Virus record (IMG/VR): IMGVR_UViG_3300044511_000070
Span: 1 to 35,365 of that record
Strand: one strand, 5' to 3'
DNA: 35,365 nt
DNA from: a virus
Shown here: positions 2,765 to 29,643 of the stretch, piece after piece
Layout: each line of letters opens with the position of its first letter
Position numbering within the stretch: the stretch's first letter is position 1
Program-made: the position numbers and the translations under genes
Notes under the pieces: generated by a model
Told to the model about the DNA's origin: nothing
What the model saw: only the letters and a program-made list of their open reading frames with translations
Database searches by the model: none

Positions 2765-2796
2765 CCCCTCCTCTCTAACCCCTACCATGGTATCCG

Positions 2797-3665: not shown

Positions 3666-3666
3666 C

Positions 3667-4587: not shown

Positions 4588-5174
4588 TGCTCTACTACCG
4601 CACGCATGCGAGTCGCACAGGGGAACGCCCGCCTGAGTTGGTTGGGTGGGAGTCTCCGTCTGTCGATGCGCAACTGAACGAGAACATCGTCGGGGACTAC
4701 CGGGTGATGGGCATCTGCCCGCCGTTCGGATTCGCTCCCCCGACGGCGGGCTGGCTGCCGCTGGCGAACGGGTGGGAGATCGCCAGCGTCGGCGATTTCT
4801 CGCCTGTTGCGCATGCGAAAAAGTCCTCGTCGTTCCGCTGCATTCCGCACATGGTGGAGGGCGTACATTGGCTCCTGCCCTCCGTGCTCACTGAGGAAGG
4901 GACTCGTAACTTCAAAGTCCGCTACTGTGGACCGGATTTCGCTCCGACGCTCACGACCGAGCAGAGCGCGGCCTTGGTCATCGCCAACGAGATCCGCGCT
5001 GCTATCACATCAGGCACCATGCCTGAGCCCTCGATCTGCGCCACTTGGGCGGCTGATCTACTGACGCTGACTCACTGTCTCAGCAGGGTGTCGCTTGGTG
5101 TTGTCGGACTGCATGAAGACCTCATCGACAAGACGCTCCGTGTTGCCGGGGGTTGCGATGACTACGCCGACTAG
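4587..5174 (+). CDS. Unrecognised tail/neck module protein
   Basis: 195 residues. The start overlaps the tube stop (TAATG). The sequence mixes aromatic and Pro-rich segments (GICPPFGFAPPTAGWLPL) with a central block (HWLLPSVLTEEGTRNFKV) and a helical tail (TTEQSAALVIANEIRAAI). It lies where tail-assembly chaperones often sit, between tube and tape measure. However, the downstream frame is +1 relative to it and no slippery heptamer is visible in the 17-base overlap, so a classic G/GT frameshift is not supported. I do not recognise the family and assign no function. Confidence 0.55.
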   Translation: MLYYRTHASRTGERPPELVGWESPSVDAQLNENIVGDYRVMGICPPFGFAPPTAGWLPLANGWEIASVGDFSPVAHAKKSSSFRCIPHMVEGVHWLLPSVLTEEGTRNFKVRYCGPDFAPTLTTEQSAALVIANEIRAAITSGTMPEPSICATWAADLLTLTHCLSRVSLGVVGLHEDLIDKTLRVAGGCDDYAD

Positions 5175-5838
5175 CGGAACCACCGATCTATTCTTCTACG
5201 TTGACGGCGTTGGTTTCTGGTCACAGACCATCCCCTACGATCTAAGCGGGATGAACCCGTCCGAAGTCACTGCGCTGGTAGCAGCCATGATGGCCGACAC
5301 TGGTAAGTGGTTCATCAAAGAGTACATGCCGATGCGGTTCCACCCCGGCTATGCTCGTGCGCAGTTGGGATACAAAATCAAGGCGAAGACGATAAAGGAA
5401 AAGCAACGCCGGGCGCGTAACGTCAATGCCGATGCGATCAACCCGAACACCTGGACGGGTGAGACGAGGAAGGCAGCGGAAGCTGCCTGGCCCGAGACGA
5501 GTGCTGTGACAGGCACGCGCAGCCGCAAGGTGAACATGAAGATCCGCATGCGTCTGCCGCAGCATGCGAACAATTCAAGCACGAACAGGATCACTCGTGA
5601 GACTCTGAGCAAGGTGACGCAGATTGAGGCCGAACGCATGGCGCGTAGGTTCTTCAAACTGATGCTTGATGCCGCGTCTCGCGTCTCGACAACCGTTGTC
5701 CATGGGAGGGGGAAAAAGCTAGTCCCTCGGTTTACATTGTCGCAGCAAGATCAGAAACTACTCGGCAGTTCCAGTCGAGCTACACTTACTGCCGCCAGGG
5801 CGGCCAGCAAGCGAGGAGCACAACGTGGCGTTGCCTAA
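5158..5838 (+). CDS. gp10-like tail-completion / neck protein (putative)
   Basis: 226 residues from ATG at 5158, chosen for the GGGGG Shine-Dalgarno at 5148-5152; it overlaps the preceding gene by 17 bases. The region FHPGYARAQLGYKIKAKT, a basic stretch (KEKQRRARNV) and NPNTWTGETRKAA match the layout of HK97 gp10-like neck proteins ('...Y..R...Y...K......L..TG'). The C-terminus is Ser/Arg/Ala-rich and basic. Its job would be joining tail to head or completing the tail. The rest of the tail block surrounds it. Moderate confidence, from motif layout only. Confidence 0.5.
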   Translation: MTTPTSGTTDLFFYVDGVGFWSQTIPYDLSGMNPSEVTALVAAMMADTGKWFIKEYMPMRFHPGYARAQLGYKIKAKTIKEKQRRARNVNADAINPNTWTGETRKAAEAAWPETSAVTGTRSRKVNMKIRMRLPQHANNSSTNRITRETLSKVTQIEAERMARRFFKLMLDAASRVSTTVVHGRGKKLVPRFTLSQQDQKLLGSSSRATLTAARAASKRGAQRGVA

Positions 5839-6976
5839 CATGATGGCCGGCGTCGGGGACGCTGAGAAGGAACTCATTGAAGCGATCCGTAAGAAAACGG
5901 CAGCGGTCAATGAGGAGCGGGCGCTCATCGAGGCCAGGAACCTGCGCAAACGCATGCGCGGGATGTCCGTATCGGATTTCACAGAGATCGACAGGTATCA
6001 GGCGTCCCTACTGGAAGGCGGCGGGGATTTTTCATATATCCCGAATCGTCTGAAAGAAAAGCACGCGGCGGCGGTCCAGGCCGCGCTCGGAGACAGACCG
6101 TCCCCTATCGCAGCCGCGATGACGCGGGCACAGGAAGCGGAGGCGGCTGTCAGGGAGGCCAATCGACAGGCCGAGTCCGATCCGAAGGGACTGGAGAAGG
6201 TCATAGGAGAGGCAAAGACGGCTCTCGCGGCGTTGCCTGTGCCAGTGGTTGCAGCGGTCGCAGCCATCAAGTTGTTCGGAATGTCTGTCGCGGAATCTAA
6301 CGCCAACATTCAGAAGGGTGCGACAGATATAGGTCAAGGTCGCGTGAGAATGGGGCAAGCGATGCGCGATCTTGGATTTAGCCCAGCAGAGCAGGACATC
6401 ATCAGGACAAAGGCAGAATTTGCAGGATTCGGAAGAAACGTAACGCTCCAAGGCGTAGAGCAGTTCTTCTCATCTGCCGCTCGCGGATCAAACGTACAAG
6501 GATTCCAATTAAAGACACCGGAGACGCGCAAGCAGTTAATGGACCTGTTGGAACAAGTTAAGAGCGGCAAACTGGACATCGGTACTGCTTCGGAAATTGC
6601 AGGAGCAGGTCCGTTTCCTGCTGTCAGTGCTGCTATGCGTGGTGTTTTCAGAACCGACAGGGGAATGTTGTCGGAACAAGCCCAAACCACAACTGGTACT
6701 GTTGCGAATATCACGACATCTGCCCAGGCCGCGAGCTATGTGCAGGGAACCCGCATGTTGACAAAAGAGGCAGAGGCAAGCGCCAATGCGATGGGGTCTG
6801 TACCGGACGCTGTTGCCTTGTGGGTCGCTCAGAGGCTAGGCTTGTGGGATTCCGGTCTAAGATTATCGACCGGAGGGAAAGAGGATCCTGCGCTCGATGC
6901 GCTCAGGAAAATAGAACAGAAGACACCAGGTCCGCCGCCTCCATCAACTAACTCAGGAGCAGGAAACGTCAGATGA
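5825..6976 (+). CDS. Short tape-measure-like tail protein
   Basis: 383 residues from GTG at 5825, preceded by GAGGAG at 5813-5818. It is almost entirely helical and Ala/Glu/Arg-rich (EKELIEAIRKKTAAVNEERA and similar). One hydrophobic stretch (ALPVPVVAAVAAIKLFGMSV) near residue 140 resembles the membrane-active segment of tape measures. The C-terminus is Pro/Gly-rich. It lies before the tail-tip genes, as tape measures do. At about 0.15 nm per residue the tail would be near 55-60 nm, short for a siphovirus. Alternatives are an internal virion or ejection protein. Confidence 0.5.
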   Translation: MALPNMMAGVGDAEKELIEAIRKKTAAVNEERALIEARNLRKRMRGMSVSDFTEIDRYQASLLEGGGDFSYIPNRLKEKHAAAVQAALGDRPSPIAAAMTRAQEAEAAVREANRQAESDPKGLEKVIGEAKTALAALPVPVVAAVAAIKLFGMSVAESNANIQKGATDIGQGRVRMGQAMRDLGFSPAEQDIIRTKAEFAGFGRNVTLQGVEQFFSSAARGSNVQGFQLKTPETRKQLMDLLEQVKSGKLDIGTASEIAGAGPFPAVSAAMRGVFRTDRGMLSEQAQTTTGTVANITTSAQAASYVQGTRMLTKEAEASANAMGSVPDAVALWVAQRLGLWDSGLRLSTGGKEDPALDALRKIEQKTPGPPPPSTNSGAGNVR

Positions 6977-7452
6977 TCCCTGTATTGCTCACTGTGAAAT
7001 ATGAGGGCAGTCTCCTGACTGACGTTCTCACCACGTCGTCTTGGGACTGTGTTCACATGCAGGTGCAAGGTCATGGCGCCTTGCCTGTTCGTCCGCAATT
7101 CCACCTCGATGTCCTCACCAGCAAGAACATCGACGGGGCGCGTTACCGCATCGGCGGATCGCATTTCCCAACCTTCCGCATGACCACCATCGTTGCCGTG
7201 CAAGATTTCAAGAGCGCACAGATTGTGGCCAGGGACATGGAGAGCATCAAGGGCGAGAAAGTCAGACTGAGCAGCGTCGAGGTTGACGGGTTCGATTCGT
7301 TGTGCTGGGTGATCGACGTTATCTCCCAGGCGTCTCCGAAAAGGGTCGTCAACGCTTCGCCGATTGTCGTTCCAGGAATAGAGACTATTTCCGGAGCAGC
7401 GCCAATGGCGAGCGTCGATACCGTCTGGACGTTGCAGGTGGTGCCGGAATGA
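6973..7452 (+). CDS. Tail-tip protein, Dit position (putative)
   Basis: 159 residues, beta-rich (MIPVLLTVKYEGSLL, YRIGGSHFPTFRMTTIVAV, VDTVWTLQVV). It sits between the tape-measure candidate and the large hub-like protein, with ATGA overlaps on both sides, which is where distal tail (Dit) proteins are encoded in siphoviruses. It is shorter than most Dit proteins and has no recognised motif, so only a tail-tip role is suggested. Confidence 0.45.
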   Translation: MIPVLLTVKYEGSLLTDVLTTSSWDCVHMQVQGHGALPVRPQFHLDVLTSKNIDGARYRIGGSHFPTFRMTTIVAVQDFKSAQIVARDMESIKGEKVRLSSVEVDGFDSLCWVIDVISQASPKRVVNASPIVVPGIETISGAAPMASVDTVWTLQVVPE

Positions 7453-9803
7453 TCTCTCTCCCTACAACCCCTCGCCAGCGTCCGCTCTTCCGCATTCAGA
7501 CGATGCCGGAAGGCACTTGGAACTCTCAGACATGGACGACGCTCCCGATCCCTATGATGATTTCCAGGGAAACTGGAAGTTTAATTAGCGGAACTGCTAC
7601 GTGGGGCGGGTTCGTTGTGGATTCGATTTCTAGGTGGTGCATCCCTGATGAAGACAGGGCACAGTTCCACGTCAAGACCGGAACGATTAGCGGGCAACAG
7701 GTTGACATGGACCTGGACTCTGGCGGAATACGTGTCAGCGGGTCTATCATCCCCGGTACGAATTTCACAAACCTTGCTGTCCGCATCCAGGTGTACGACG
7801 ACGAGTCGTTTCCCGGTAAAGCCACGGCGGTGCCTACAAGCGGCTGGAAGACGGTATTCCTCGGAACGGTGATCTACACCGAGAACACCAGGAGCGTCGG
7901 ACTTGACGAATACGGGACGACGACGGTGTACTGCGCCGGGATCCTCACGCGCACACGCTGCTGGCCTATGAACAGGCACAGCACGGTTGACAACATCCAT
8001 GCAATCGGAAACCCAGGATACAACATCCCCCTTCACGGTTATTTCCGCCAGGTGATCGGCAACAGGGCGTCGAACGGTGCCCCAGGGACCGACCCATACG
8101 GGGACATGGCAGGGAAGCTGGATGTGCAGGGTCGTGATTTCAGTGACTACTATTTCAAGCATGCTCTGCCAACTGACGCCACCGGTTACAAGTGGACGGA
8201 CATGGATGTTGTCCGCCATGCGCTCACCTCAAGTCGGGCAGTCGGTGAACCCCTCATCAGTGTCAGCATGGAGGGCGGGTTGTTCGATGGAACGTACTCC
8301 TGGCCTGTCTCCCCGTCCGAGACGTGTTGGGACGTGATCCGTCGCATCTGCAACCGGGGTCGCGGCAGAGGCGCGTGCTTCATGAACTATCAGGACAACA
8401 TGGACGGCAGCGTTACGCCGATCCTGGTGGCTAATCGTCCTAATCTGGAAGACATCTACTATTACAGCCAGGGGACGACAGATAAGTTGCAGATGTTGAC
8501 TTCGCACAAGATAGATAAAGCCGTGTCCGGTGTCGATGCTGTGGACGTTGACATAAATAACGACCATCGCGTTACGGACGACGGATTTAGGTTCGACAAC
8601 AGAGAATCCGCCGTGTCGGATTGCGTTGTCGTGCAGGGCGAGCCGATACAGGTTCTCACGAATCTGTCCTTCAATGACGGAGGTCCGTCGTTGGTCAAGG
8701 CGTGGAGCAATGCGGACGAAACCGCGTTTGAGACGATAGACATCAAAAACACTCGCTGGGCAACGTCTGCAAGATGGAGGCACGTTTATCGGCGGTTCAG
8801 AATTGATCCGTATGCGATGCTCGACACATACGCCAACAATCCGCAGACGATCAATTTCCGTACCGACCAATTCGGAAACGTCGTGCGCGTCGAGGGTGGC
8901 GAGGGCGGTTCGTCGGCCATGACGGTCAGGGTTCTTCCGGATCTTCCTATCTACGAGGGATGGCGATACGATATCGTCCCGCCTGATAGGTGGGACGGAG
9001 GAAGCGATTACCTGCCGCCAGCCAGAATGCCACCTGTTGTGATCTACAAGACGAAGGACACTGGAACGACTACATGGTTCCCGCTGACGCAATACGGGTT
9101 CAGCATCCAGAGCGATGACTTCGGTGTACTCATCTGTCATTCGGCAGAGGATGTTTCCGGATTCCGGTTCCTGATCTCCAATCCCGCATCCAAGTGGTTC
9201 GCCTCGCTCCGCAAGGCAGGTGTGCCGATAACCGCAGCCGACACGTCTTCCGGAATTGTTCTTGATAATCTCAAAGTGATCGCTGGTGTCGAGCTTGGGG
9301 CGAGGGTATCGATCTCGAAATCTCTGACTGGAACCTATCTCACCAACGGTCGCCGCATGACGATGACAGTCAACGGAGTTCATCTCTGGCTCGGAGCACC
9401 AGGGATGATATGGGATATGGACCTCCTAAACGCCGCACAGTCAGGCTACACACCCGGCCTCACATTCCCGAGCGGGGTAATCGCCAACCTAATCCGAGAC
9501 GACCGTGCCGAGTTGTCGTTCATCGCGGCTCTTGCGTATGAGTATTATGGCAAGGTCCACAACCCATCCACCTGGACACTGAGGGATTGCGGACTTTTAA
9601 CATCTTTTTCGACTCTTGAGGGGGCAACGATTGCTTACCCGACACTCGGTCAGATTGTCGGGAACGTCACTTTCGCAGGACCACAGAACTTGGAAACGAC
9701 GGTTGCAATCAACACGCCGATAACTAGCATCCATTACGACCACGAGCAGGGAACCACAACGTGGAGAACCGACTATGTGTCGTATGACGGGAACATGCAA
9801 TGA
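7449..9803 (+). CDS. Tail hub / tail-associated protein (putative)
   Basis: 784 residues from ATG at 7449, which overlaps the previous stop (ATGA); an upstream in-frame extension exists but would run deep into the preceding gene. It is rich in Trp, Tyr, Asp and Thr with mixed beta structure. The segment SETCWDVIRRICNRGRGRG near residue 290 resembles the helical part of baseplate-hub proteins. The size, and the position after a Dit-like gene and before a fibre, match a Tal/hub protein that closes the tail tip and carries fibres. No peptidase or lysozyme motif was seen. Assignment is by position and layout. Confidence 0.5.
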   Translation: MISLPTTPRQRPLFRIQTMPEGTWNSQTWTTLPIPMMISRETGSLISGTATWGGFVVDSISRWCIPDEDRAQFHVKTGTISGQQVDMDLDSGGIRVSGSIIPGTNFTNLAVRIQVYDDESFPGKATAVPTSGWKTVFLGTVIYTENTRSVGLDEYGTTTVYCAGILTRTRCWPMNRHSTVDNIHAIGNPGYNIPLHGYFRQVIGNRASNGAPGTDPYGDMAGKLDVQGRDFSDYYFKHALPTDATGYKWTDMDVVRHALTSSRAVGEPLISVSMEGGLFDGTYSWPVSPSETCWDVIRRICNRGRGRGACFMNYQDNMDGSVTPILVANRPNLEDIYYYSQGTTDKLQMLTSHKIDKAVSGVDAVDVDINNDHRVTDDGFRFDNRESAVSDCVVVQGEPIQVLTNLSFNDGGPSLVKAWSNADETAFETIDIKNTRWATSARWRHVYRRFRIDPYAMLDTYANNPQTINFRTDQFGNVVRVEGGEGGSSAMTVRVLPDLPIYEGWRYDIVPPDRWDGGSDYLPPARMPPVVIYKTKDTGTTTWFPLTQYGFSIQSDDFGVLICHSAEDVSGFRFLISNPASKWFASLRKAGVPITAADTSSGIVLDNLKVIAGVELGARVSISKSLTGTYLTNGRRMTMTVNGVHLWLGAPGMIWDMDLLNAAQSGYTPGLTFPSGVIANLIRDDRAELSFIAALAYEYYGKVHNPSTWTLRDCGLLTSFSTLEGATIAYPTLGQIVGNVTFAGPQNLETTVAINTPITSIHYDHEQGTTTWRTDYVSYDGNMQ

Positions 9804-12938: not shown

Positions 12939-14300
12939 TCATCCTTTCAGTGCTTTGCGCAGGTCTAGCTGCGCTAGTTCTTTCTTCGTGATGGCCGCTG
13001 CCACCTTGGCATCGACCGTTTTCTTTGTAAGAATGCGTATTACCCGCACCGGCTTTGTCTGTCCCTGCCGGTGCAGCCTGCCGACCATCTGCCGGTATAG
13101 CTCGTTGCTCCACGGCATGGTGACGATGACGAGGCACGACCCGCCGTGTTGCAGGTTGATGCCGTGGCCGACACTCGCCGGGTGCATGAACAGGACGGGG
13201 ATCTTGCCCGCGTTCCAGTCTGCGACCACCTCGGTGGCGGCCTTGTCGCTCATGCCGGGGCCGAGGATCGGAGCGGAAGGCCAGCGTTTCCTGATCTCTT
13301 CCATCTCGTGCTTGTACCAATAAGCGACCAGCATGTTCTCGCTGGCGTCTTCCAATATCTCCTCTAACCGATCCATCTTCTCACTGTGGACAGGGTGTGA
13401 CTTCTTCTCCTCGTCGTAGACCGCACCGGAGCACACCTGTCGGCACTTCTCCGTCTTGCTGCCAGTACCGAACGCAGTGATCGTGGCCCCGTCCTCCAAC
13501 TCCGCAGCGGCCTCCTCTGCCAACTCGTCGTACATGGTGCGAGCAGCAGGCGGCAGCGTCACGAGGTCGTCGATCTCGGTCATCGGAGGGACCGACAGGT
13601 AGTCCTTCGCCTCCAGGGAGATCGTGATATCCCTTATCTTGCCCTGGATGGCAACGTCTGCCCCGTCTCGAAGCGTAGTCTCGAAGCGGTTGTAGGGGTT
13701 CGTCTCGAAGTATTTCTTGAGGTAGTGCGTCCAGTATTTCTCAAGTCTCTCACCGCCGTCAAGGATGTGGTACTGCGACCACAAGTCCTGGTAGCGTTCC
13801 GGCATTGGCGTGCCGGTTAGCTCGACAATGCGCGGGAACATCGGTGACTTGCTGATCGCTTTGAACATCTTGAACCGACCACTGTTGTGCGCCTTCATGC
13901 GGCTCGACTCATCGAGCACGATCATGTCGAAGAACTCAGGTGTCCAGTGCTTGTACAGCCACTCAACCAACCATGTCGTCATCTCGTAATTTATGATGTA
14001 AATGTCAGCAGGACGCAGGAGTGCCTTGTGGCGCTCTGCTGGCGTGCCCCTCACCAGGGACACGCGCAGGCCACGAGCATGGTCCCACTTCTGGATCTCG
14101 TCAGGCCATGCAATCGTTGCCACTTTAAGCGGGGCCATGACGAGCGCGGAACGAATAGCGAAATTGTCAATGAGTCGCTTGATTGCTGTGAGGGTGACGG
14201 CTGTCTTGCCCAAGCCAACATCCATGTGAACTGCGCACCTCGGCGTATTCACAATGAAGTCGGTTGCCCGACGTTGGTATGCGTGTGGAGTGAAGATCAC
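12939..14300 (-). CDS. Snf2-type SF2 helicase/ATPase
   Basis: 453 residues from GTG at 14300, overlapping the nuclease stop (GTGA). SF2 motifs are in order: Q-like YQRRA at 8-12, Walker A DVGLGKT at 27-33, DES at 130-132 (DExx box), LTGTP at 161-165, and QMVGRLHRQGQ (motif VI) near residue 413. The small helicase lobe is present, so it looks complete and lacks accessory chromatin domains. Phage homologues of this kind are usually paired with a VRR-NUC nuclease, as here, and are thought to act in replication, recombination or DNA branch processing. The substrate is not shown by the sequence. Confidence 0.9.
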   Translation of the reverse strand: MIFTPHAYQRRATDFIVNTPRCAVHMDVGLGKTAVTLTAIKRLIDNFAIRSALVMAPLKVATIAWPDEIQKWDHARGLRVSLVRGTPAERHKALLRPADIYIINYEMTTWLVEWLYKHWTPEFFDMIVLDESSRMKAHNSGRFKMFKAISKSPMFPRIVELTGTPMPERYQDLWSQYHILDGGERLEKYWTHYLKKYFETNPYNRFETTLRDGADVAIQGKIRDITISLEAKDYLSVPPMTEIDDLVTLPPAARTMYDELAEEAAAELEDGATITAFGTGSKTEKCRQVCSGAVYDEEKKSHPVHSEKMDRLEEILEDASENMLVAYWYKHEMEEIRKRWPSAPILGPGMSDKAATEVVADWNAGKIPVLFMHPASVGHGINLQHGGSCLVIVTMPWSNELYRQMVGRLHRQGQTKPVRVIRILTKKTVDAKVAAAITKKELAQLDLRKALKG

Positions 14301-14567: not shown

Positions 14568-16403
14568 TTACAATTCCGTCGTGGCAATGAGATCCCTGGC
14601 AGCCCTGACATAGTAGTCTAAGTCTAGGTCAGGAGGGAATCCCGTCAACCATAGGTCTGAAAGGTCCATAGCCAGCACTGCGTTGCTGCCGTTCTCAATG
14701 CCGGTGAACGAGTCGTCCTTGTCCTTCCGCTGCAACTGATCGCCCGATTTTCCAACGTACCAGCGGGCGATGGTGCCGATGTGCTTGTCACCGTGGTACA
14801 TCTGCCCGCCATTCTTGATCTTGGCGTAGTACAGGAACTTGTACAGATCCTTGCACGACCGGATGGTCTTCTCGGGATCCTTGCCGTGCAGCAGGTATTC
14901 CTGCGCGGCCTGCTTTACGATGATCTGTTCCCATTTCCCATTATCCGGAGCATGGTGGAAGTCACCCTTGAGCTTGACCTCACCTTTCGTGTCGAGTGCG
15001 ATATAATTGTTCACGTCCTTGCGGATGAACTTGACGTACTCTTTCTCCTCCAGCGTGTGCCCGGTCGCCTTCTCCCAATCGTGCATGTCGTCGCGCATGC
15101 GACCCATGTTGTCGGGATGGACGCACACGGTCACACCGTCTGTGTTCGCACTGATGACCTCAATGCCGTCCAGCGTCAGGGCCTCGATCAGCATCATAAG
15201 CTGCAACTGCCCGTTGATGACGACGCGCAACTGCGACTTGTGGCTGCGCATCATGGAGTAGGGATTGCCCATGACTCCGTAGGATGCGTTGAGGATGATC
15301 TTGTAGACCTCGGCGGTGGCCTTGTCGCCTGCGCGTTTTGCGGCCACACGCAGGTCGCGCATCTGCCGGTAGTTGTCGAGGAACACCCCGCGCAACTGTT
15401 CCGGCTCGATCTCTTCGTTGAGGATCAGCGACGGGTAGTAGCTCGCCACGTCCATGTCGATGATGCGCTTGTTGGGATGCGTCGTCATCCTGGAAGGCGC
15501 GTCGATACTGTGTATCCCTCCGACACCCAACTGCAACTCAATCGGCCCAATCTTGACCGGCTTTTCAAAGGTCTTGTCGCTGTACTTCCACGACGTTCGC
15601 GCCTCGTCTCCAATAAGTGAGCAGTTGAGGAATCTGTCCAGCCACTTACGCATCGCATCGCTCTTATATGCAACTCTAGGAGATACGATTTCGGACAGCT
15701 TCCACTCTTTGGTTGTGTTTTCCTCGCTTTCGTCTGCCACGCTGCGAAGGTACGATTTCTTGGATCCCGACAGGTTCGTGAACACCTGCTGGGCGATGCC
15801 AGCGTCACCAAGAACGTAAGCGTCAGGTCCAATATCGGTGATCGGGTTCTTGATAAGATCAGCACGCACGGCGACGAGGTTTTGGAACTTTTCATAAAGC
15901 GCAAAGGTGGACTTCGCATCGTTGATGCAGTATTCGATTGTCTGTGGGATTTTAGACACTGGGAGCGGCTTCTCGAAGTCAACAGGCGACTCCAACACCC
16001 GCTCGAACCCGATGCGGCATTGCCACTCTTTGAGCGAGTTTTTCTTGTTCAAAAGCTGGAAAATGTCGATGTGGGCGAACGGCTTTTTCCCGTAGGCCAG
16101 CGCCCGCACCTTGGGGTGTGCCATGCTACGGGAGATGATGTTCTGGCTGCACGTGTGCAGATCCGTGCGCGTGCAGCGCAGCCCCTTTTCGAGAAGATAG
16201 GCCAGCAGCACGCAGTCGTAACCGAACCCGTTGAAGCTGACGAACCGCTGGTGCGGGCGACAGATGAAGTTGATGATTTCCTTGAGACGAGCCTGTCCGT
16301 AGTCGCCCTCACTTAGCTCGAACGAAAGCGTCTCTTCTGGGTTGTAGGCAACCAGGAGGAAGTAGTTGGAGAAGCACTCGGTGTCGATGGAGTAGGTTTT
16401 CAT
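14568..16403 (-). CDS. Family B DNA polymerase
   Basis: 611 residues from ATG at 16403, which overlaps the previous gene's stop (TAATG). The exonuclease motifs are DTE at 7-9, FNGFGYD at 57-63 and YCINDAKS near 158-165. The polymerase motifs are MDVASYYPSL near 317 (motif A), KIILNASYGVMGNP near 367 (motif B) and NTDGV near 420 (motif C, where many family B enzymes have DTDS). It is compact, and motifs A and B are only ~40 residues apart, so the TPR2 insertion of protein-primed enzymes is absent. With a primase-helicase elsewhere in the window, RNA- or DNA-primed replication is more likely. It should be the replicative polymerase with proofreading. Confidence 0.92.
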   Translation of the reverse strand: MKTYSIDTECFSNYFLLVAYNPEETLSFELSEGDYGQARLKEIINFICRPHQRFVSFNGFGYDCVLLAYLLEKGLRCTRTDLHTCSQNIISRSMAHPKVRALAYGKKPFAHIDIFQLLNKKNSLKEWQCRIGFERVLESPVDFEKPLPVSKIPQTIEYCINDAKSTFALYEKFQNLVAVRADLIKNPITDIGPDAYVLGDAGIAQQVFTNLSGSKKSYLRSVADESEENTTKEWKLSEIVSPRVAYKSDAMRKWLDRFLNCSLIGDEARTSWKYSDKTFEKPVKIGPIELQLGVGGIHSIDAPSRMTTHPNKRIIDMDVASYYPSLILNEEIEPEQLRGVFLDNYRQMRDLRVAAKRAGDKATAEVYKIILNASYGVMGNPYSMMRSHKSQLRVVINGQLQLMMLIEALTLDGIEVISANTDGVTVCVHPDNMGRMRDDMHDWEKATGHTLEEKEYVKFIRKDVNNYIALDTKGEVKLKGDFHHAPDNGKWEQIIVKQAAQEYLLHGKDPEKTIRSCKDLYKFLYYAKIKNGGQMYHGDKHIGTIARWYVGKSGDQLQRKDKDDSFTGIENGSNAVLAMDLSDLWLTGFPPDLDLDYYVRAARDLIATTEL

Positions 16404-16912
16404 TACTTCGCTTTCTCCAGCAGTGCGGCGATGCGAGCCTCTAGGTCGAAGTTCCGGCGCCCTATCTTGCCGTCGTCCCACCTGTCTAGTTCATCGTGTG
16501 CCTCCCGCAGCAGCGCCATGGCGGCGTCACGCTCGGCTTCCGCCTTCTGCCACCGCTGGATCTCGTCAGCCACGCCGCTACCGTCGCGGAGATTCTTGAA
16601 CCCCCGCTCCGCCTTCTCGGCCCGCTCCGTCATGGCGGCGAGTTCGGCGCGGAGGCGGGCGATCTCGGCACACGCTGCCCTGACTCGCTCCCGGCAGGTG
16701 GTCAGTGGCCCCATGTCGAGTTCCTTTCGAAGTTCCTTCCAGTCGTCGCCGGTCGGATCGTCGTCGTGGCTCTCCTGGCAGATCGTCTCGTCACCTGGCA
16801 GCATCGCCAGCGACACAGGAAGACCGTTGCCGTCAGGTGGGCTCGGCATTAGGTGGTAGTGCTGGCGCAGGTCTGCTTCCAGGCGGGCGAGGCGTTGTTC
16901 GATGGTGCTCAT
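16403..16912 (-). CDS. Coiled-coil protein upstream of polymerase
   Basis: 169 residues, not recognised. The start MSTIEQRLAR is preceded by AAGGA, seven bases from the ATG. After a Pro/Asp/Glu-rich linker (residues ~22-60) the remainder is a long heptad-rich helix (RVRAACAEIARLRAELAAMTERAEKAERG... and EAERDAAMALLREAHDELDRW). The stop overlaps the polymerase start, which suggests coupled expression. Its first ten codons and leader are almost identical to those of the methyltransferase just upstream in the operon. It may be an oligomeric accessory or scaffold protein; function unknown. Confidence 0.65.
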   Translation of the reverse strand: MSTIEQRLARLEADLRQHYHLMPSPPDGNGLPVSLAMLPGDETICQESHDDDPTGDDWKELRKELDMGPLTTCRERVRAACAEIARLRAELAAMTERAEKAERGFKNLRDGSGVADEIQRWQKAEAERDAAMALLREAHDELDRWDDGKIGRRNFDLEARIAALLEKAK

Positions 16913-16932
16913 GGTGATTCCTTGTTGGTGGC
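16884..16932 (-). repeat. 49-bp direct repeat, copy at coiled-coil gene start
   Basis: 47 of 49 bases match 17559-17607 in the same orientation. The unit covers the Shine-Dalgarno, the ATG and the first ten codons (MSTIEQRLAR) of the coiled-coil gene. The two copies flank the methyltransferase body and are 675 bp apart. Confidence 0.95.
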
Positions 16933-16954
16933 GTAGGTTTTCACTGGGTTCGAT

Positions 16955-17587
16955 CTAGGGTAAAAGCTGTTGTTCCAGACGACGAGCGGCAATCCTGCAA
17001 TACTTTTCTTCTCTTTCCACACCGATGGCTCTTTTCCCTAATTTCTTAGCTGCAACCAGGGTCGTGCCGCTGCCCATGAATGGGTCTATGATCGCCCCTT
17101 CCTTGTGGAAACGAGTAATCACCGCCTCCATCAACCCGACTGGCTTACTGCAAGGGTGGCCAGGGTAGCGTTTCTCCATCTTGCTGTACTTTATTGTGTC
17201 TAGACCATACCTGTTATTGTTCTTGCCGTAGAACAACATTGGCTGCCATGAATTGTACCCTATCTTCCCCCACGACCCCGTTGTGCCGTAAAACCAGCAA
17301 GCGATCCAATCGGCTTTTGGATACCTCCACACATTATGGATGCCTGGGAAAATTACCGATCTTTCCGCTTTAGCAATGTATTCACTTATCGTCGGGATAA
17401 GTGCTTCTAGATTGCTCACGCTATCGTCGTATCCGATGTAATCTATATCCAGCCCATACGGCGGATCGGTGAGCAGGAGATCAACGCGGTCGAGAAATGG
17501 AACAACATCGGCACAATTGCAATTATATATGGTGATGCCGTCTTCATCGTAGTAGGGACGGGCGAGGCGTTGTTCAATGGTGCTCAT
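16955..17587 (-). CDS. Beta-class DNA methyltransferase (N6-adenine or N4-cytosine)
   Basis: 210 residues. The catalytic motif TDPPYG is at 40-45 and the SAM-binding motif DPFMGSGTT at 168-176. The order catalytic motif, target region, then SAM motif is that of the beta class (N6_N4_Mtase). Residues 1-10 are copied from the downstream coiled-coil gene; the conserved core starts around YYDEDGITIYNCNCADV. No restriction enzyme lies nearby, so this is an orphan enzyme likely protecting phage DNA from host restriction or marking it. The target sequence cannot be read from the gene. It is compact, with a short target-recognition region. Confidence 0.92.
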   Translation of the reverse strand: MSTIEQRLARPYYDEDGITIYNCNCADVVPFLDRVDLLLTDPPYGLDIDYIGYDDSVSNLEALIPTISEYIAKAERSVIFPGIHNVWRYPKADWIACWFYGTTGSWGKIGYNSWQPMLFYGKNNNRYGLDTIKYSKMEKRYPGHPCSKPVGLMEAVITRFHKEGAIIDPFMGSGTTLVAAKKLGKRAIGVEREEKYCRIAARRLEQQLLP

Positions 17588-17607
17588 GGTGGTTCCTTGT
17601 TGGTGGC
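17559..17607 (-). repeat. 49-bp direct repeat, copy at methyltransferase start
   Basis: Second copy of the repeat at 16884-16932 (two mismatches), supplying the methyltransferase with its ribosome-binding site and first ten codons. Recombination between copies would remove the methyltransferase and leave the coiled-coil gene with an intact start. Confidence 0.95.
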
Positions 17608-17638
17608 ACGACTATTGCCCGTCGTGCCAGTGGGCGGA

Positions 17639-18244
17639 TTAGAAGGGAGCCGAGTCGTCATCGGACTTGCGACCGCCAATCGGCGCAGGGTCGTCAAAGT
17701 CCACGTTCGCACTCGTGCTGCTGGCCTCGCCCTCTTCGATGAACAACACCCCGTCGAGGTAGAAGTTCAACGCCGGGTAGTACGCGTCCACCAGCCGACC
17801 GTTCTTTTTCTCCTGGCCGGTACGCCAGAAGTTGCCGACAGTGACACGACACTGCACGACGTTACCGTGGGAGATGATGTCAGGGTCAGCAGGCGTTTCC
17901 CAGTCGCCCTTGTAGACCTTCGGCGGGTGCTGTTCGTTCGACTTGGCGTTGAACGTGTAGAACCCCTCAGACTTGCTGTCAGGGTAGAAGGGCATGGACA
18001 CGTCGGAGATGTTCTTGATGCCGGCTTCGGGGAACGCTTCCTTTGCGAAATTGAGCAACATATCCTCGATCTTGACGACCGCAGGGTGGTCCTCATCGAC
18101 GAGCACCTTGATCTTGAACTTGTTGCCTCCGTACTTCGGATCGCGGTCGGGGGCCGCGATGCTCGGGAACTTGCAGATGCCGCGAGGCATCTTCACGTTC
18201 TTCAAGTACCTCTTGAGGAGCTTGGGTTGGGTGGATTCTGCCAT
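17639..18244 (-). CDS. Single-stranded DNA-binding protein, T7 gp2.5-like (DUF2815)
   Basis: 201 residues from ATG at 18244, which has AAAGGGAAACC just upstream; the frame extends further but without a comparable start. The core (KYGGNKFKIKVLVDEDHPAV, then GFYTFNAKSNEQHPPKVYKG) and the acidic C-terminus ending DDDSAPF fit gp2.5-like binding proteins. Their acidic, Phe-terminated tail contacts the polymerase and helicase. It would coat single-stranded DNA during replication and assist annealing. It is transcribed with the exonuclease upstream and the methyltransferase and polymerase downstream. Confidence 0.85.
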   Translation of the reverse strand: MAESTQPKLLKRYLKNVKMPRGICKFPSIAAPDRDPKYGGNKFKIKVLVDEDHPAVVKIEDMLLNFAKEAFPEAGIKNISDVSMPFYPDSKSEGFYTFNAKSNEQHPPKVYKGDWETPADPDIISHGNVVQCRVTVGNFWRTGQEKKNGRLVDAYYPALNFYLDGVLFIEEGEASSTSANVDFDDPAPIGGRKSDDDSAPF

Positions 18245-18272: not shown

Positions 18273-19463
18273 TTACAACGGTTTGTCAAAGTCGAATGAC
18301 TCTGACGTGACCGCAGGGCGTGGATCGTCGGCACGGGCCAGCGAAATCTTACCGGGTCGCTTGGTCGTGTGCGCGTCGATGAAATCTTTTCTGGCTTTCT
18401 TGTCGTCAAACAACTCCCCCACGACCCCCAGGCCGGCAAGGGAGCGAGGGGCGAACGAGTCTGCCGCGTAGCCAAGGGCGATCAGATCGTTGTACGTCTT
18501 GGTCTCATCGGTCCACTGTCTCATGGGCTTGCCCTCAACCAGCTTCCAGCCGGGCATGCTCTGACCAGCCTCCAGCCGATCACGGGCGAAGTCGCGCAGG
18601 CTCTTGATGAACCCCTCGACGGCATCGACATTGCTCAGGTACGCTCCGATCTCTTCAAGACTGAGCGTTGAGCAAGAGGGCGTGCGTCCGGTTCCGGCGG
18701 TGATGCCGTCGAAGTCGATGCCCGCCTGCTTGTTCGCCCACACCGCGTGCGCTTTGCATTGCGCTTTCGCAACGCACCACTGACATGCCTTCTCCCCAGG
18801 ACCGAAGTCGAGAGCCGTTTTGCCCTTGATGCGGCGCACGACATCCGCCACCGTATCGCGAAAAGTCTTGATGCCGTCAATCGAGTCGTCCCATTCCTGC
18901 GGCTCGGGAGTGCTGCGGGGCTGGATGATGCAGAGGGTGATGCGGACGATGCGGTTCCACAGCTTGAACGTGTCGAGCGCACCCAGGACGTAGAGGCGCA
19001 ACTGCTTGTTCTCGACGGGCGAGACGACAACGCCGCGCCCGTGCTTGTAATCGGCAATGATGAGATGGCTGGTGGACTTGTTGTAGAGGAGCACGTCAAC
19101 AGTGCCGAACTCACCAGTAACGGCTAAATCCAGGCGAATCTCGTGCTTGAGCGTGTACCCTTCGAGCACTTTGCCCATCACGTAATCGAACGCGATGGAC
19201 ACCGCTTCGATTGCCTCTTGCGTGACCGTGACACCACCGACCTCTTTGCCTTTGAACTTCTGAGGGTGCGTCTTCAACTCAAGACAGAGATCGAGCAATT
19301 CGTGTGCTGCGGTTCCCTCGGCTGCCGCTGGTGATTGCGGCGGTTCGGGGAGGTTCAGCGACTCGACGTAAGAGGGCTGGATTGTACAGTTAATCCAGGT
19401 GTCGCCCTTACTGCACGAGAACGTCTTTGCATGCGCACGCTCTGAGTGCGGGGTGTCGGCCAT
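18273..19463 (-). CDS. PD-(D/E)XK exonuclease, DUF2800/Cas4-like
   Basis: 396 residues from ATG at 19463, preceded by GAGGAATACAAC; longer in-frame starts lack a Shine-Dalgarno. The nuclease core is GTAAHE at 50-55, D123 in GTVDVLL, and D138-Y-K140 in IIADYKHGRG. Cysteines near the N-terminus (C17, C26) and the later cluster CQWCVAKAQC resemble the iron-sulphur site of Cas4/AddB-type nucleases. Phage members of DUF2800 are taken to be recombination exonucleases working with an annealing SSB, and the SSB gene follows directly. Activity direction is not shown by sequence. Confidence 0.85.
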   Translation of the reverse strand: MADTPHSERAHAKTFSCSKGDTWINCTIQPSYVESLNLPEPPQSPAAAEGTAAHELLDLCLELKTHPQKFKGKEVGGVTVTQEAIEAVSIAFDYVMGKVLEGYTLKHEIRLDLAVTGEFGTVDVLLYNKSTSHLIIADYKHGRGVVVSPVENKQLRLYVLGALDTFKLWNRIVRITLCIIQPRSTPEPQEWDDSIDGIKTFRDTVADVVRRIKGKTALDFGPGEKACQWCVAKAQCKAHAVWANKQAGIDFDGITAGTGRTPSCSTLSLEEIGAYLSNVDAVEGFIKSLRDFARDRLEAGQSMPGWKLVEGKPMRQWTDETKTYNDLIALGYAADSFAPRSLAGLGVVGELFDDKKARKDFIDAHTTKRPGKISLARADDPRPAVTSESFDFDKPL

Positions 19464-19637: not shown

Positions 19638-19877
19638 TCAGAGCGCAGCGTCTTCGGCAGCCGGCTCGACAGCCTTCGGCGGGCGACCACGACGCTTGGG
19701 GGCGGCGGCAGGCTCGGCCTCGGGCTCGGCCACGACCTTGCGAGGCTTGCGAGGCTTGCGGGCTTTCTTCTCCGGCACGATGAGCGCCTGGATGGTCAAC
19801 AGAGCACTGTTGGCAGCGGTGATCTGCGACAGCAATTCCTGCTGCTGCGCAACGGTGAGAACGACGTAATCGGACAT
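19638..19877 (-). CDS. Small AT-hook protein
   Basis: 79 residues. The N-terminal 35 residues are a helical segment (AQQQELLSQITAANSALLTIQALI). A Lys/Arg/Pro-rich linker (KKARKPRKPRK) follows, then the AT-hook core KRRGRPPK near residue 63. AT-hooks insert Arg-Gly-Arg-Pro into the minor groove of AT-rich DNA. The start has AAAGGA eight bases upstream. A second AT-hook protein with a similar N-terminal helix is encoded two genes upstream, so the two may be paralogues. The AT-rich tract at 25170-25310 is a possible target, which is inference. Confidence 0.75.
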   Translation of the reverse strand: MSDYVVLTVAQQQELLSQITAANSALLTIQALIVPEKKARKPRKPRKVVAEPEAEPAAAPKRRGRPPKAVEPAAEDAAL

Positions 19878-19898
19878 GATTGATCCTTTCTGGATCGG

Positions 19899-20129
19899 TT
19901 ATCCCGCTTGCGCGGGGGGTGGGGTAAAAGCAGCGATATATTCCTCATGTATGGCGCCGACAGGTGGCAACTCGAAAACCCGGTAACGGTTCTCCCCGCC
20001 CTCACGCCAGTAGTATTTCTCTACACAGATATCTCGGACCCGTTCGGCCTCTTTCTCTGTCGAGAAAAGGCCGACGACGTTAGACGAGACACCGCATTCG
20101 ATACAGCCGATGTTGACGACCAAATACAT
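19899..20129 (-). CDS. Unknown small protein with Cys pair
   Basis: 76 residues from ATG at 20129, immediately after the stop of the upstream AT-hook gene; no strong Shine-Dalgarno, suggesting translational coupling. The sequence starts MYLVVNIGCIECGVSS, with a CxxC pair, and continues with a helical EKEAERVRDICVEKYYW segment and a Pro-rich end. The fold may resemble small 'Val-Gly-Phe-Ser' signalling-like domains seen in phage proteins of unknown role. No function assigned. Confidence 0.6.
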   Translation of the reverse strand: MYLVVNIGCIECGVSSNVVGLFSTEKEAERVRDICVEKYYWREGGENRYRVFELPPVGAIHEEYIAAFTPPPAQAG

Positions 20130-20131
20130 GG

Positions 20132-20611
20132 TTACAGAGGTTCTTCGGCCTTCTCGGCCTTTTTCTTCGCGTTCTCGACCTTGGTCTGAATCGCCTTGAT
20201 GCACTCACCGAGCTGCGCGTCGGGCACGCTGGCGCTGCCCTGGCCGCCCTCAGCGAAGAGGGCGATGGTCGCCACCACCTTGGCACGGTCCAGAACCGCG
20301 CAAGCCGCCTTAGCAACCTCCTGGAGCTTGGCACGCAGGGGGTGATCGGGCGTGATGGCCTTGTCGTCCTTGGGCTTCTCTTCCTCGACCTGCGCCTCGA
20401 CCTCGGGGATCGTCTCCTGCTTCGGGGGACGACCGCGACGAGGGGCGGGGGCTGGGTCGGCGTCAGAGGCGGGGGGCTTGGTGTCGGCCTTGGCCGCTGC
20501 TGCGGCGGCCTCCGCTTCGATGTGTTCGCACAGCAGCTTGACCTGCTGGCTGAGAGTGGCGAGGGTGGTGGAGATCGACATCAGAGTGCCGATTTTGGTG
20601 CCGGTTGGCAT
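20132..20611 (-). CDS. AT-hook protein with C-terminal helical domain
   Basis: 159 residues from ATG at 20611, with AAAGGGAAACC just upstream, nearly the same leader as the SSB gene. The N-terminal helix (STTLATLSQQVKLLCEHIEAE) resembles that of the other AT-hook protein. After an Ala/Pro linker comes RRGRPPKQ near residue 59, then an acidic stretch, and a C-terminal helical domain (LRAKLQEVAKAACAVLDRAK). The last part is very Lys/Glu-rich. It probably binds AT-rich phage DNA and oligomerises through its helices, perhaps as an architectural or replication factor. Confidence 0.75.
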   Translation of the reverse strand: MPTGTKIGTLMSISTTLATLSQQVKLLCEHIEAEAAAAAAKADTKPPASDADPAPAPRRGRPPKQETIPEVEAQVEEEKPKDDKAITPDHPLRAKLQEVAKAACAVLDRAKVVATIALFAEGGQGSASVPDAQLGECIKAIQTKVENAKKKAEKAEEPL

Positions 20612-20639
20612 TTGGTTTCCCTTTCTATGGGAGGTTGGG

Positions 20640-20918
20640 TTAGTCTCTTGGTTCGCAGACGAGGTACGTGACGTGCCAGACGACAGCCACGCCAGCGAAC
20701 GCTGCGAGGTAGACGGCAGGGGTGTAGGCTGAGAGGAGGCACATCACAGCCGACGCGACGATAAAGATGATCGCGCAGATGAGGGCGTAGTGCTTTTCTT
20801 CCTCACGATGCCGGGTGCTGACCTCTTCGGTGCGTCCGCAGACACGACAGGTGAAGATGCTGCTGTTCTCCGTGTGCCTGATCTCGCAGTCAGACGTTGT
20901 GCAGTCGTGACGCCTCAC
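20640..20918 (-). CDS. Zinc-ribbon membrane protein
   Basis: 92 residues. Residues ~5-30 have CTTSDC and CRVCG, a likely zinc knuckle facing the cytoplasm. Two strongly hydrophobic segments follow (ALICAIIFIVASAVMCLLSAY at about 45-65 and AVYLAAFAGVAVVWHVTYLV at about 68-87). It overlaps the upstream RHH-like gene by ATGA. This combination of zinc ribbon and two membrane helices has no family name I recognise; a membrane-attached regulator or anti-host factor is possible, but not shown. Confidence 0.65.
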   Translation of the reverse strand: MRRHDCTTSDCEIRHTENSSIFTCRVCGRTEEVSTRHREEEKHYALICAIIFIVASAVMCLLSAYTPAVYLAAFAGVAVVWHVTYLVCEPRD

Positions 20919-21112
20919 AGCGCCCCCGCACAGTGCGCACGAATGACGCGGATCAGATAGGCTGCCACCGACCGGTCGTCCTCCTGAGCCATCTTGGACA
21001 CGACAGCATACTCCGCAGCCGTCATGCAGAGCTTGACGGCCCTGGAGCGTCGGGCGGAGGGGGGAAGGGGAGGCCGACCGGATGGCGGGGCGGAGGGGGT
21101 TTTCTTGCTCAT
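20915..21112 (-). CDS. Small RHH/helix-turn-helix-like protein
   Basis: 65 residues from ATG at 21112, with AAGG in the leader; a longer in-frame start exists but lacks a Shine-Dalgarno. After a Pro/Ser/Lys-rich N-terminus, AVKLCMTAAEYAVVSKMAQEDDRSVAAYLIRVIRAH has the strand-helix-helix pattern of ribbon-helix-helix (CopG/Arc) DNA-binding proteins. It could repress phage promoters as a dimer. It overlaps the membrane-protein gene downstream. Two other RHH-like proteins are encoded in the window. Confidence 0.6.
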   Translation of the reverse strand: MSKKTPSAPPSGRPPLPPSARRSRAVKLCMTAAEYAVVSKMAQEDDRSVAAYLIRVIRAHCAGAL

Positions 21113-21182
21113 GGGCGGAACCTTAAAGGGCTTGTAAGGGGCGTCAAGGGGTTTCTTGGGACTGACGAGATTGCTTGTGTTT

Positions 21183-21410
21183 TTACTCGGTTTTGCTCGC
21201 GTAAGCATCGATCTGGTCCAGCGAAGTGTTCACCGGCCCCCTCCAGAAAGGCCGGCACGGCCACCAACTGGTGGGCGGATCTCCACGCAGGTGAGCCCAT
21301 GTCTCACGGTCGAGTGGCAGTGGCGGGATGATTCGGATGGACTCTGGCGTGCGGTGGAGGGTGTGCAGCGTCCAGCCGTCGCCGGAGGCGGCGTAGGGGG
21401 AGGGGGTCAT
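21183..21410 (-). CDS. Unknown 75-residue protein
   Basis: The ATG at 21410 overlaps the stop of the zinc-ribbon gene upstream (ATGA), which is the main support for this gene. The protein is Pro/Trp-rich (PPTSWWPCRPFWRGP) without clear secondary structure, and ends DQIDAYASKTE. A 70-bp gap separates it from the next leftward gene. Not recognised. Confidence 0.5.
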   Translation of the reverse strand: MTPSPYAASGDGWTLHTLHRTPESIRIIPPLPLDRETWAHLRGDPPTSWWPCRPFWRGPVNTSLDQIDAYASKTE

Positions 21411-21598
21411 GGTGCGTACTGCCCATTCACGGAGTTACCACATTCCGGACACTTAATGGTGTTCCACTCGCAACCAAACGACCTGCAATGTTCTCCGTCG
21501 CTTTTATTCCATCGCATGACGGCGAGACACTTGTTGCAGGTGCCCTCGACCTTGCGGTCTTGAGGCTCGATGCCTTTTTTGATGATTTCAATGGTCAT
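21407..21598 (-). CDS. Zinc-ribbon mini-protein
   Basis: 63 residues from ATG at 21598 (AAGGAAACC in the leader), overlapping genes on both sides by four bases. Cysteines come as CNKC, then C, C, and CPEC toward the C-terminus, giving two possible zinc sites (EGTCNKCLAVMRW ... EHCRSFGCEW ... IKCPECG). Such tiny ribbons often bind nucleic acid or partner proteins. Specific function unknown. Confidence 0.65.
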   Translation of the reverse strand: MTIEIIKKGIEPQDRKVEGTCNKCLAVMRWNKSDGEHCRSFGCEWNTIKCPECGNSVNGQYAP

Positions 21599-21825
21599 GT
21601 GGTTTCCTTGGCGCCGGCCCGCTGATCGCTGGGGCTGGGCGGAAACGGCAGATCGTTGTCCGCGTAGTCCTTGCGCCAAATCTCCATGACCGCATCAGAA
21701 TGCTCACGCTCGAACAGATACGCAGCGATGGTGTCGATGAACTCGTCGGCGGGCATCTGCTCGAACGCTGTGTGCAGGAGATCATACAGCGTGTGCTGCT
21801 GTGTCATTTCGATGACGGTGCTCAT
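21595..21825 (-). CDS. Unknown acidic helical protein
   Basis: 76 residues from ATG at 21825, overlapping genes at both ends by four bases. The composition is acidic and helical (LYDLLHTAFEQMPADEFIDTIAAYLFE), with a Pro-rich C-terminus. It has no cysteines and no membrane segment. Its leader contains the 23-base sequence also present in front of the next gene upstream (22178-22200). Not recognised. Confidence 0.6.
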   Translation of the reverse strand: MSTVIEMTQQHTLYDLLHTAFEQMPADEFIDTIAAYLFEREHSDAVMEIWRKDYADNDLPFPPSPSDQRAGAKETT

Positions 21826-22184
21826 GGTTTTCTCTCCGTGGTTTCCCTTGTCTTCCTCAGCACAAGCTCCCGCTGCCAGGCAGTCCACAATTTCGCCTGC
21901 GCATCCTTCGCCGCTGGTCCAGGCGAGGCACGGAACCACGCGCCAACGGCATCAGTGAGATCGTCCAGCCTCTTCTCAGTTGATGGACGTTTTGCGTCTT
22001 CCTTGATGCGATTCCTAGATTTGCCCTTGATAAAATGCACACTGCACCCGTCTTCACGACTGAAAGGCAAGCAATTACTGGCCGCGCATTGGGTCGGTTT
22101 GTTGCAAAATGCGCACTTGAAGCAGTCACCGCCACGAACGGCAATGTACCCCTTTGGTGCTTCGTTTGGGTTTAATTTGCTCAT
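21822..22184 (-). CDS. Small zinc-binding-type protein
   Basis: 120 residues from ATG at 22184 (MSKLNPNEAP), overlapping the RHH gene upstream by four bases. Cysteines cluster early (DCFKCAFCNKPTQC, then SNC and GCS), consistent with a compact zinc site; the rest is basic, then helical (RLDDLTDAVGAWFRA, LWTAWQRELVLRK). It is the second gene of the leftward operon. Function unknown; a nucleic-acid-binding role would fit. Confidence 0.6.
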   Translation of the reverse strand: MSKLNPNEAPKGYIAVRGGDCFKCAFCNKPTQCAASNCLPFSREDGCSVHFIKGKSRNRIKEDAKRPSTEKRLDDLTDAVGAWFRASPGPAAKDAQAKLWTAWQRELVLRKTRETTERKP

Positions 22185-22339
22185 GGTTTGCTCTCCGTGG
22201 CCTCGCGCTTGATCTGCGCCGCGATGACGCGCCGCAGGAACTCGCTGATAGTCACGCCGGCCTCCTCGGCGCGGCGAACCAGCCATGCCCGCTGCGCTGG
22301 CGTGACGCAGACCTTCTGGCGGTAGACTCGTGTGCTCAT
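22181..22339 (-). CDS. Ribbon-helix-helix DNA-binding protein, first gene of leftward operon
   Basis: 52 residues. MSTRVYRQKVCVTPAQRAWL gives a short strand, then RRAEEAGVTISEFLRRVIAAQIK forms the two helices of a CopG/Arc-type RHH fold. The ATG at 22339 has no Shine-Dalgarno; a promoter-like element ends only eight bases upstream, so a leaderless start is possible. The stop overlaps the next gene (ATGA). Being first in the operon and next to a divergent promoter region, it could autoregulate both directions. Confidence 0.7.
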   Translation of the reverse strand: MSTRVYRQKVCVTPAQRAWLVRRAEEAGVTISEFLRRVIAAQIKREATESKP

Positions 22340-22347
22340 GGGTGGGC

Positions 22348-22375
22348 ACAGTAGGGCCACCTATGGCCGGGTCAA
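22348..22375 (-). promoter_or_regulatory. Putative leftward promoter
   Basis: On the minus strand TTGACC (22375-22370) and TACTGT (22353-22348) are spaced 16 bp, resembling a -35/-10 pair. The -10 box ends eight bases before the RHH ATG, so the transcript would begin at or very near the start codon. The -10 match is weak. Confidence 0.4.
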
Positions 22376-24722: not shown

Positions 24723-24746
24723 ATAGTAGTTTTGACGCTTAGAACC

Positions 24747-25120
24747 CATGACGCACCCGCTTTGAGGGGTGCGTCATGCGAAAAACCCTAGTATTTTTAC
24801 TAGGGTTTTTTCATTTTTAGACCCCATCCATGACGCACATGACGCACTTTTCCCTATTCCCCTACCGCCACTATACGGCCCCCACCCCTTTTCTGCCTAT
24901 GGCCTTTTTGCTAGCCGGTCGGTAAAGGAGGAAAAGTGCGTCATGCCTAGTGCTAAAATTAAATAAATGCTAGCATTTCTACTACGATTTTTGCATGACG
25001 CACCCCCCAAAAAAGTGCGTCATGCGTTTCTCGTCAAAAATTAAAGAAACACTAGTAAAAACACTACACTTTTAGCGCATGACGCACCTTTTTCGGGGGG
25101 TGCGTCATGGGTGCGTCATG
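24747..25120. repeat. Iteron cluster: ten copies of ATGACGCAC, candidate replication origin
   Basis: The 9-mer ATGACGCAC occurs forward at 24748, 24830, 24839, 24995 and 25079, and as GTGCGTCAT at 24769, 24936, 15 bases into the 25000s (25015), 25100 and 25111. Three forward/reverse pairs (24748/24769, 24995/25015, 25079/25100) start 20-21 bp apart, about two helical turns, and each can fold into a hairpin. A longer inverted pair (24840-24853 with 24930-24943) encloses ~76 bases. The cluster lies just after the primase-helicase gene and next to an AT-rich tract, as at iteron-type origins. An operator cluster for a regulator is the main alternative. Confidence 0.8.
24781..24810. terminator. 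Rho-independent terminator after primase-helicase
   Basis: AAAAACCCTAGTA (24781-24793) pairs perfectly with TACTAGGGTTTTT (24798-24810) over a TTTT loop, with A-runs before and T-runs after, so it can terminate in both directions. It is placed about 60 bases after the primase-helicase stop, between the first iteron pair and the second. Confidence 0.85.
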
Positions 25121-25310
25121 CTTTTCAAAAAGGGGTGGGGTAAAATAAATGCCCACCCCCCCTAACCCCTTGTCACTACTGAAAATCATATAAAATATTT
25201 TTTTCTAAGTATATAAAAAAAATCATAAAGATACGATTTTTTTAATAGGGTTAAAAATGCCAGAACAATTTATTTTATGGTAAACTTTATTTATTATTAT
25301 CGGACATTTT
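25121..25310. other. GC hairpin and AT-rich tract, possible DNA-unwinding element
   Basis: GGGGTGGG at 25132-25139 pairs with CCCACCCC at 25152-25159. From about 25170 to 25310 the sequence is nearly all A and T, with runs of up to eight T or A (ATATTTTTTTCTAAG, TATATAAAAAAAATC). Such tracts next to iterons are where origins melt. No open reading frame of credible quality crosses it. Confidence 0.55.
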
Positions 25311-29433: not shown

Positions 29434-29497
29434 GTCCATGCTGTCCGCAGTCCATGCTGTCCGCAGTCCATGCTGTCCGCAGTCCATGCTGTCCGGT
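29434..29497. repeat. Four 16-bp tandem repeats upstream of the terminase genes
   Basis: GTCCATGCTGTCCGCA repeats at 29434, 29450 and 29466, with a fourth copy at 29482-29497 whose last three bases differ. The array is non-coding, ends about 150 bases before the first packaging gene, and lies directly after a terminator. Its place is where phages often keep the packaging (pac or cos) recognition site, so terminase binding is a reasonable hypothesis. Confidence 0.9.
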
Positions 29498-29643
29498 GTC
29501 CGAACTGCTACGGGTCCCTATCAACGCGCTCCAGAAACGGGGGGTGCGAATATCGAAGCAAAAATTCGGATAAGTTTCTGAGGGGGTATGGGTTTATTTT
29601 GTCTGCACTTGCAATCTAAGCATTGACAAATAGGATTTCCGAC
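29498..29643 (+). other. Leader of the packaging block
   Basis: No gene. It contains TTGACA at 29623-29628 (a good -35 sequence, but with no matching -10 at 17 bp) and AGGA at 29632, the ribosome-binding site of the next gene. The G-run GGGGGGTGCG near 29538 is unusual for this window. A cos or pac function is possible but shows no diagnostic palindrome. Confidence 0.3.

Follow-up and report, generated by a model that had tools for sequence, protein, structure and literature searches.

In cluster K mycobacteriophages, start-associated sequences of 13 bp are found in 11–19 copies per genome upstream of the start (PMC3203893), and Citrobacter phage Mordin carries a 26-bp repeat in 8 copies upstream of starts (PMC4611695); in both, an identical sequence containing the Shine-Dalgarno element precedes the starts of unrelated phage genes. 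The PeSL cassettes of T4-like phages (Arbiol 2010, Comeau 2014), as summarized in PMC4503421, consist of a promoter plus a stem-loop and have been proposed as mediators of gene shuffling. Phage T4 under laboratory selection acquires tandem amplifications at microhomologies of 6–10 bp, with deletions elsewhere (PMC9391042). Finally, phage morons and orphan DNA methyltransferases (phrog_67, PF01555) are extra genes of deviant composition amid conserved genes. The locus described here has something in common with each of these systems and differs from all of them.

The window, i.e. the whole stretch of DNA that was analyzed (35,365 nt; IMG/VR virus record IMGVR_UViG_3300044511_000070), is a single metagenomic contig. 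It contains a replication operon with all genes on the minus strand, in the order exonuclease, ssb, methyltransferase, coiled-coil gene, DNA polymerase and SNF2 helicase (Table 1; the listed ORF of the exonuclease extends to 19607, and we placed the start near 19462). The methyltransferase belongs to the N6/N4 class according to its match to Pfam PF01555 (80.8 bits, cutoff 26.7) and to the DPPYG (catalytic) and DPFMGSGTT (SAM-binding) motifs conserved in the alignment; it also matches phrog_67 (1.8e-36). For the coiled-coil protein, no relative was found in the databases searched, IMG/VR proteins included. A weak PADLOC match of this protein to LmuB (E 0.0017) was ascribed to coiled-coil similarity and set aside. 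The six ORFs of the adjoining block (19638–22349) gave no defence-system match.

Table 1. Features of the methyltransferase locus and its operon (window coordinates)
Feature	Position	Strand	Description
Repeat copy 1 (X1)	17559..17607	-	RBS, ATG and codons 1–10 of the methyltransferase gene; 47/49 vs copy 2
Repeat copy 2 (X2)	16884..16932	-	RBS, ATG and codons 1–10 of the coiled-coil gene
Tandem unit 1, 675 bp	16933..17607	-	X1, methyltransferase body and TGAAAACCTAC
Tandem unit 2, 541 bp	16392..16932	-	X2, coiled-coil gene and TGAAAACCTAC
TGAAAACCTAC, presumed remnant of duplicated polymerase start	16933..16943	-	11/11 vs polymerase codons 1–4; flush with X2
ATGAAAACCTAC, DNA polymerase gene start, end of the coiled-coil tandem unit	16392..16403	-	Directly follows the stop codon of the coiled-coil gene
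Perfect hairpin TGGCACGAC-8 nt-GTCGTGCCA	17604..17629	-	9-bp stem, behind the ssb gene
PD-(D/E)XK/Cas4-like exonuclease gene	18273..19462	-	phrog_69 2.2e-79
ssb gene, gp2.5-like ssDNA-binding protein	17639..18244	-	phrog_112 2.1e-12
DNA methyltransferase gene, N6/N4 class	16955..17587	-	210 aa; motifs DPPYG, HPCSKP, DPFMGSGTT
Coiled-coil protein gene	16403..16912	-	169 aa
B-type DNA polymerase gene	14568..16403	-	phrog_1252 1.1e-128
SNF2 helicase gene	12939..14300	-	

As the original prediction stated, the methyltransferase gene and the next gene share their Shine-Dalgarno element, ATG and the residues MSTIEQRLAR within a direct repeat of 49 bp (X1 and X2, 47 of 49 positions identical, ungapped), and the spacing of 675 bp that it gave is also correct, measured from start to start (626 bp lie between the copies). 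The repeat is composed of 20 bp 5' of the ATG, with AAGGAA among them, followed by 29 coding bases, which make up nine full codons and two bases of the tenth, an Arg codon in both genes. One mismatch is a single base (C/T) in the interval between the Shine-Dalgarno element and the ATG, and the other (ATT/ATC) is at a synonymous third position. This match is far beyond chance: the longest exact repeat across 30 shuffles of the window was 13–16 bp, and the two tandem units (Table 1) were matched by BLASTN with E = 2e-19.

Start-associated sequences are found in many copies at gene starts genome-wide. In the window, every site outside X1 and X2 departs from the 23-nt start signal at 6 or more positions, and with just these two copies a genome-wide start-associated repeat was rejected. 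It is also improbable that the repeat is a start-signal element of the phage of the kind seen in cluster K, distributed over several genes to serve expression or gene exchange; the repeat does span the Shine-Dalgarno element and the ATG, and in a distant group of lake phages (see below) many genes carry a 19-bp start signal between whose copies genes have been gained and lost, but the 49-bp repeat is absent from the 13.4-kb second contig L047, and its 29 coding bases contrast with start-associated sequences, which have no coding part. Compared with the cluster K and Mordin repeats, the window repeat is longer and rarer, reaches ten codons into the genes and is part of a tandem-unit structure. 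The PeSL cassettes resemble it as a repeated regulatory sequence proposed for gene shuffling and differ in being, as summarized in PMC4503421, a promoter plus a stem-loop, whereas the window repeat is a translation start with no sigma-70-like promoter found.

The N-termini of the two unrelated proteins differ in how well they fit the shared start. Methyltransferase homologues from phages begin with MKPYY, MNPYY or MSLPKPYY in our alignment, and none has MSTIEQRLAR; in the window methyltransferase, MSTIEQRLAR is joined directly to PYY, with no residue between the borrowed stretch and the conserved core, and the homologues' native start codon, which has no counterpart there, is therefore missing. 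The shared start is apparently native to the coiled-coil gene, since in its protein the shared N-terminal residues continue as a regular heptad (I4-L8-L11-L15) into the coiled coil. The donor is a gene of the phage, and not of its bacterial host as the wording "host gene" had implied. In a structure model of the methyltransferase (built from four sequences, of low overall confidence with a mean pLDDT of 53.9, and used for the N-terminal tail alone), residues 1–10 form an unordered low-confidence tail, and a fold is confidently predicted from residue 11 onwards. The methyltransferase gene also has the lowest GC (0.491) and the lowest codon score (-0.057) among 25 genes, with two other genes nearly as extreme in codon score; GC3 by itself is indecisive for a foreign origin, as the exonuclease gene is low too. 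By composition the methyltransferase gene is apparently foreign, and the reading that its start is a duplicate of its neighbour's is supported.

To place the locus among relatives, IMG/VR was searched with the methyltransferase, coiled-coil, ssb, polymerase, helicase and terminase proteins, GTDB genomes with the methyltransferase and the polymerase, and phage and plasmid records at the DNA level. No close relative covering the locus was found in these collections, which yielded distant ones and a contig (L046/L047) that ends short of the locus; a degenerate DNA pattern for MSTIEQRLA had no match in IMG/VR. The operon is most closely matched by that of MW202897 (polymerase 39%), where the exonuclease, ssb and polymerase genes come in the same order, with 122 bp separating ssb from the polymerase and both the methyltransferase and the coiled-coil gene absent. 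A DNA polymerase-like gene comes directly after ssb in three further loci (L013, L014 and L018) and after short ORFs in L040 (the polymerases of these four are of another type than the window's). Because distant relatives have ssb next to the polymerase without the two genes, both are apparently additions in the window lineage; MW202897 and the other loci are too distant to reveal one versus two repeats.

A second footprint is found at the far end of the methyltransferase segment, where a copy of the polymerase start (TGAAAACCTAC) abuts X2 without a gap, the following base on the coding strand being the first base of X2. The original prediction missed this copy, which is new here. It is preceded by G, giving GTG where the polymerase has ATG. 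When the target was dinucleotide-shuffled 20,000 times, a match of 11 bases flush with the boundary turned up twice; with the same geometry, 0.15% of window positions (about 1 in 650) reach such a match. Both figures concern a short remnant spotted post hoc. With this remnant, the locus can be divided into two tandem units, each running from a copy of X to TGAAAACCTAC (Table 1). Outside their shared ends the units have nothing significant in common, and the 3' end of the coiled-coil gene is unrecognisable in unit 1. The hairpin behind ssb includes the first four bases of X1 in its 3' arm, and X2 has no such hairpin; since X1 overlaps the hairpin and X2 does not, this suggests that the position of X1 is old and that the junction at X2 is new. 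We note a frame of 11 codons (MKTYATNKESP, 16909–16944) that begins at the GTG of the presumed remnant and whose TGA overlaps the coiled-coil ATG (ATGA); it could serve as a translational coupler and is possibly accidental.

The ends shared by both units, together with the hairpin at X1 alone, argue for a chimeric gene that probably, though far from certainly, arose by tandem duplication of the coiled-coil gene and later replacement of the interior of the upstream copy by a foreign methyltransferase; the order of events and the replacement step are what we infer. The ancestral order would have been ssb, coiled-coil gene (with start X) and DNA polymerase. The stretch from X to polymerase codon 4 would have been duplicated head to tail, and the part of the upstream coiled-coil copy that extends from codon 11 up to the polymerase start would have been swapped for a foreign orphan DNA methyltransferase without its start codon, which would then be translated from the duplicated RBS and bear a ten-residue borrowed tail. 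Neither an intermediate with two coiled-coil copies nor a one-copy genome was found in our searches for relatives. The original prediction of a cassette made from a duplicated start holds in part: the duplication of the start agrees with the N-termini of homologues, the composition and the distant relatives with ssb and polymerase adjacent, whereas the copy of the polymerase start flush at the other end points away from simple copying of a start signal and towards tandem duplication plus replacement. A rather unlikely alternative is capture in one step, in which a fork copying the coiled-coil gene would, once past codon 10, jump to a foreign template with the methyltransferase and return to the start of X, the polymerase-like 11 bp being due to chance or to the donor. 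It would reach the same end product by one event and fits the lack of any remnant of the coiled-coil 3' end in unit 1, but it offers no reason for the segment to finish, precisely at the junction, with the start of the very next gene.

Tandem duplication followed by replacement finds a parallel in the dmd-tifA amplification of T4 (PMC9391042), in which recombination likewise yields head-to-tail copies of a gene segment, possibly for counter-defence; the T4 copies all remain one gene, whereas at the window locus one copy has a different, foreign gene inside.

The prediction that one recombination would restore the coiled-coil gene exactly was borne out in silico: removal of one unit gives the coiled-coil protein in frame, and the arrangement can therefore in principle be reverted. 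The methyltransferase is the sole gene inside the repeat-bounded segment, for which there is no sign of a recombinase or transposase of its own, and its best terminal inverted 15-mer (10 of 15) was matched by 41% of shuffles. Its loss would have to proceed by homologous or slippage recombination; such a deletion between the repeats would drop the methyltransferase and restore the coiled-coil gene without dedicated excision machinery. The segment also lacks the defining features of transposable elements and insertion sequences. A mobile element that inserted itself and duplicated a 49-bp target site would account for a foreign gene bounded by direct repeats but is very improbable: there is no transposase, terminal inverted repeats do not rise above chance, usual target-site duplications are far shorter than 49 bp, and the repeat falls on the start of a gene. 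Like a moron, the methyltransferase gene has a foreign composition and lies between genes that are adjacent in relatives; it differs from morons and orphan methyltransferases in that a consensus scan (a weak test) detected no sigma-70-like promoter or terminator of its own, and in that its start is borrowed from the neighbour. Orphan phage methyltransferases are usually read as anti-restriction enzymes, and by analogy this one presumably methylates the phage DNA, most likely against host restriction.

That the locus is an assembly artefact joining two variants is very improbable. The window is one metagenomic contig and the locus appears in no second record, but the two copies can be told apart at two positions, neither reading frame is broken, and the repeat is short relative to usual read lengths. 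Contig L046/L047 is 99.98% identical to the window over 29542–35365. L047 (IMGVR_UViG_3300024054_000138) is also 98.9% identical over window positions 1–178 and joins the two ends of the window, with 7381 extra bases in between (179–7559) that contain large structural ORFs; since L047 bridges both ends with these bases, the window is an incomplete genome of roughly 42.7 kb in full. Other repeats were also observed in the window. A 55-bp direct repeat (91%; 68–122 and 524–578) lies inside a 441-aa gene at the window start, has related copies in the part of L047 missing from the window, and is probably an internal duplication in a structural protein. A gene-poor stretch (24735–25300) contains clustered perfect hairpins, the arms of several being CATGACGCACC/GGTGCGTCATG, and is possibly a replication origin or a regulator-binding array. 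A 16-bp tandem repeat (GTCCATGCTGTCCGCA, about four copies, 29434–29497) is found upstream of the terminase region.

A survey for the same pattern covered 0.56 Mb of fetched loci. In a distant lake-phage group (L019–L025 and L041; helicase 35%), a 19-bp element, AAAGGCACAAGAGAAATGA, is found at the starts of many small unrelated genes. Its sequence forms the end of one gene, mostly coding for ...KAQEK, and supplies the next gene with a Shine-Dalgarno element and an overlapping ATGA start. At one site between fixed flanking genes, L025 has 0 genes and 0 elements, L021, L022, L023 and L041 have 1 of each, and L019 and L024 have 6 of each, and a second site combines conserved neighbours with wholly different genes in between (L019 10571–12059 and 1447–1640; L041 492–710 and 10526–10783; L022 1–900 and 10270–10500). 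The group looks like a recombinase-free gene-cassette array, and these comparisons show that gene gain and loss between start-signal copies occurs in phages, though not that it occurs in the phage of the window. It is a speculative and unlikely extension that start-signal copies are general docking and excision sites for in-frame swaps of whole genes without a recombinase, with the window as the founding step (one gene, two copies) and the L019 group as the mature state.

The locus is a genuine and instructive fossil of a gene captured through the borrowed start of its neighbour, most likely via tandem duplication and replacement. How a foreign gene comes to be expressed upon landing in a tight phage operon is seldom visible; here the footprints (the start, the junction and the lost native start codon) are still readable. 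The arrangement predicts that, barring selection for methylation, the methyltransferase would be lost precisely, at a rate set by the 49-bp repeat.
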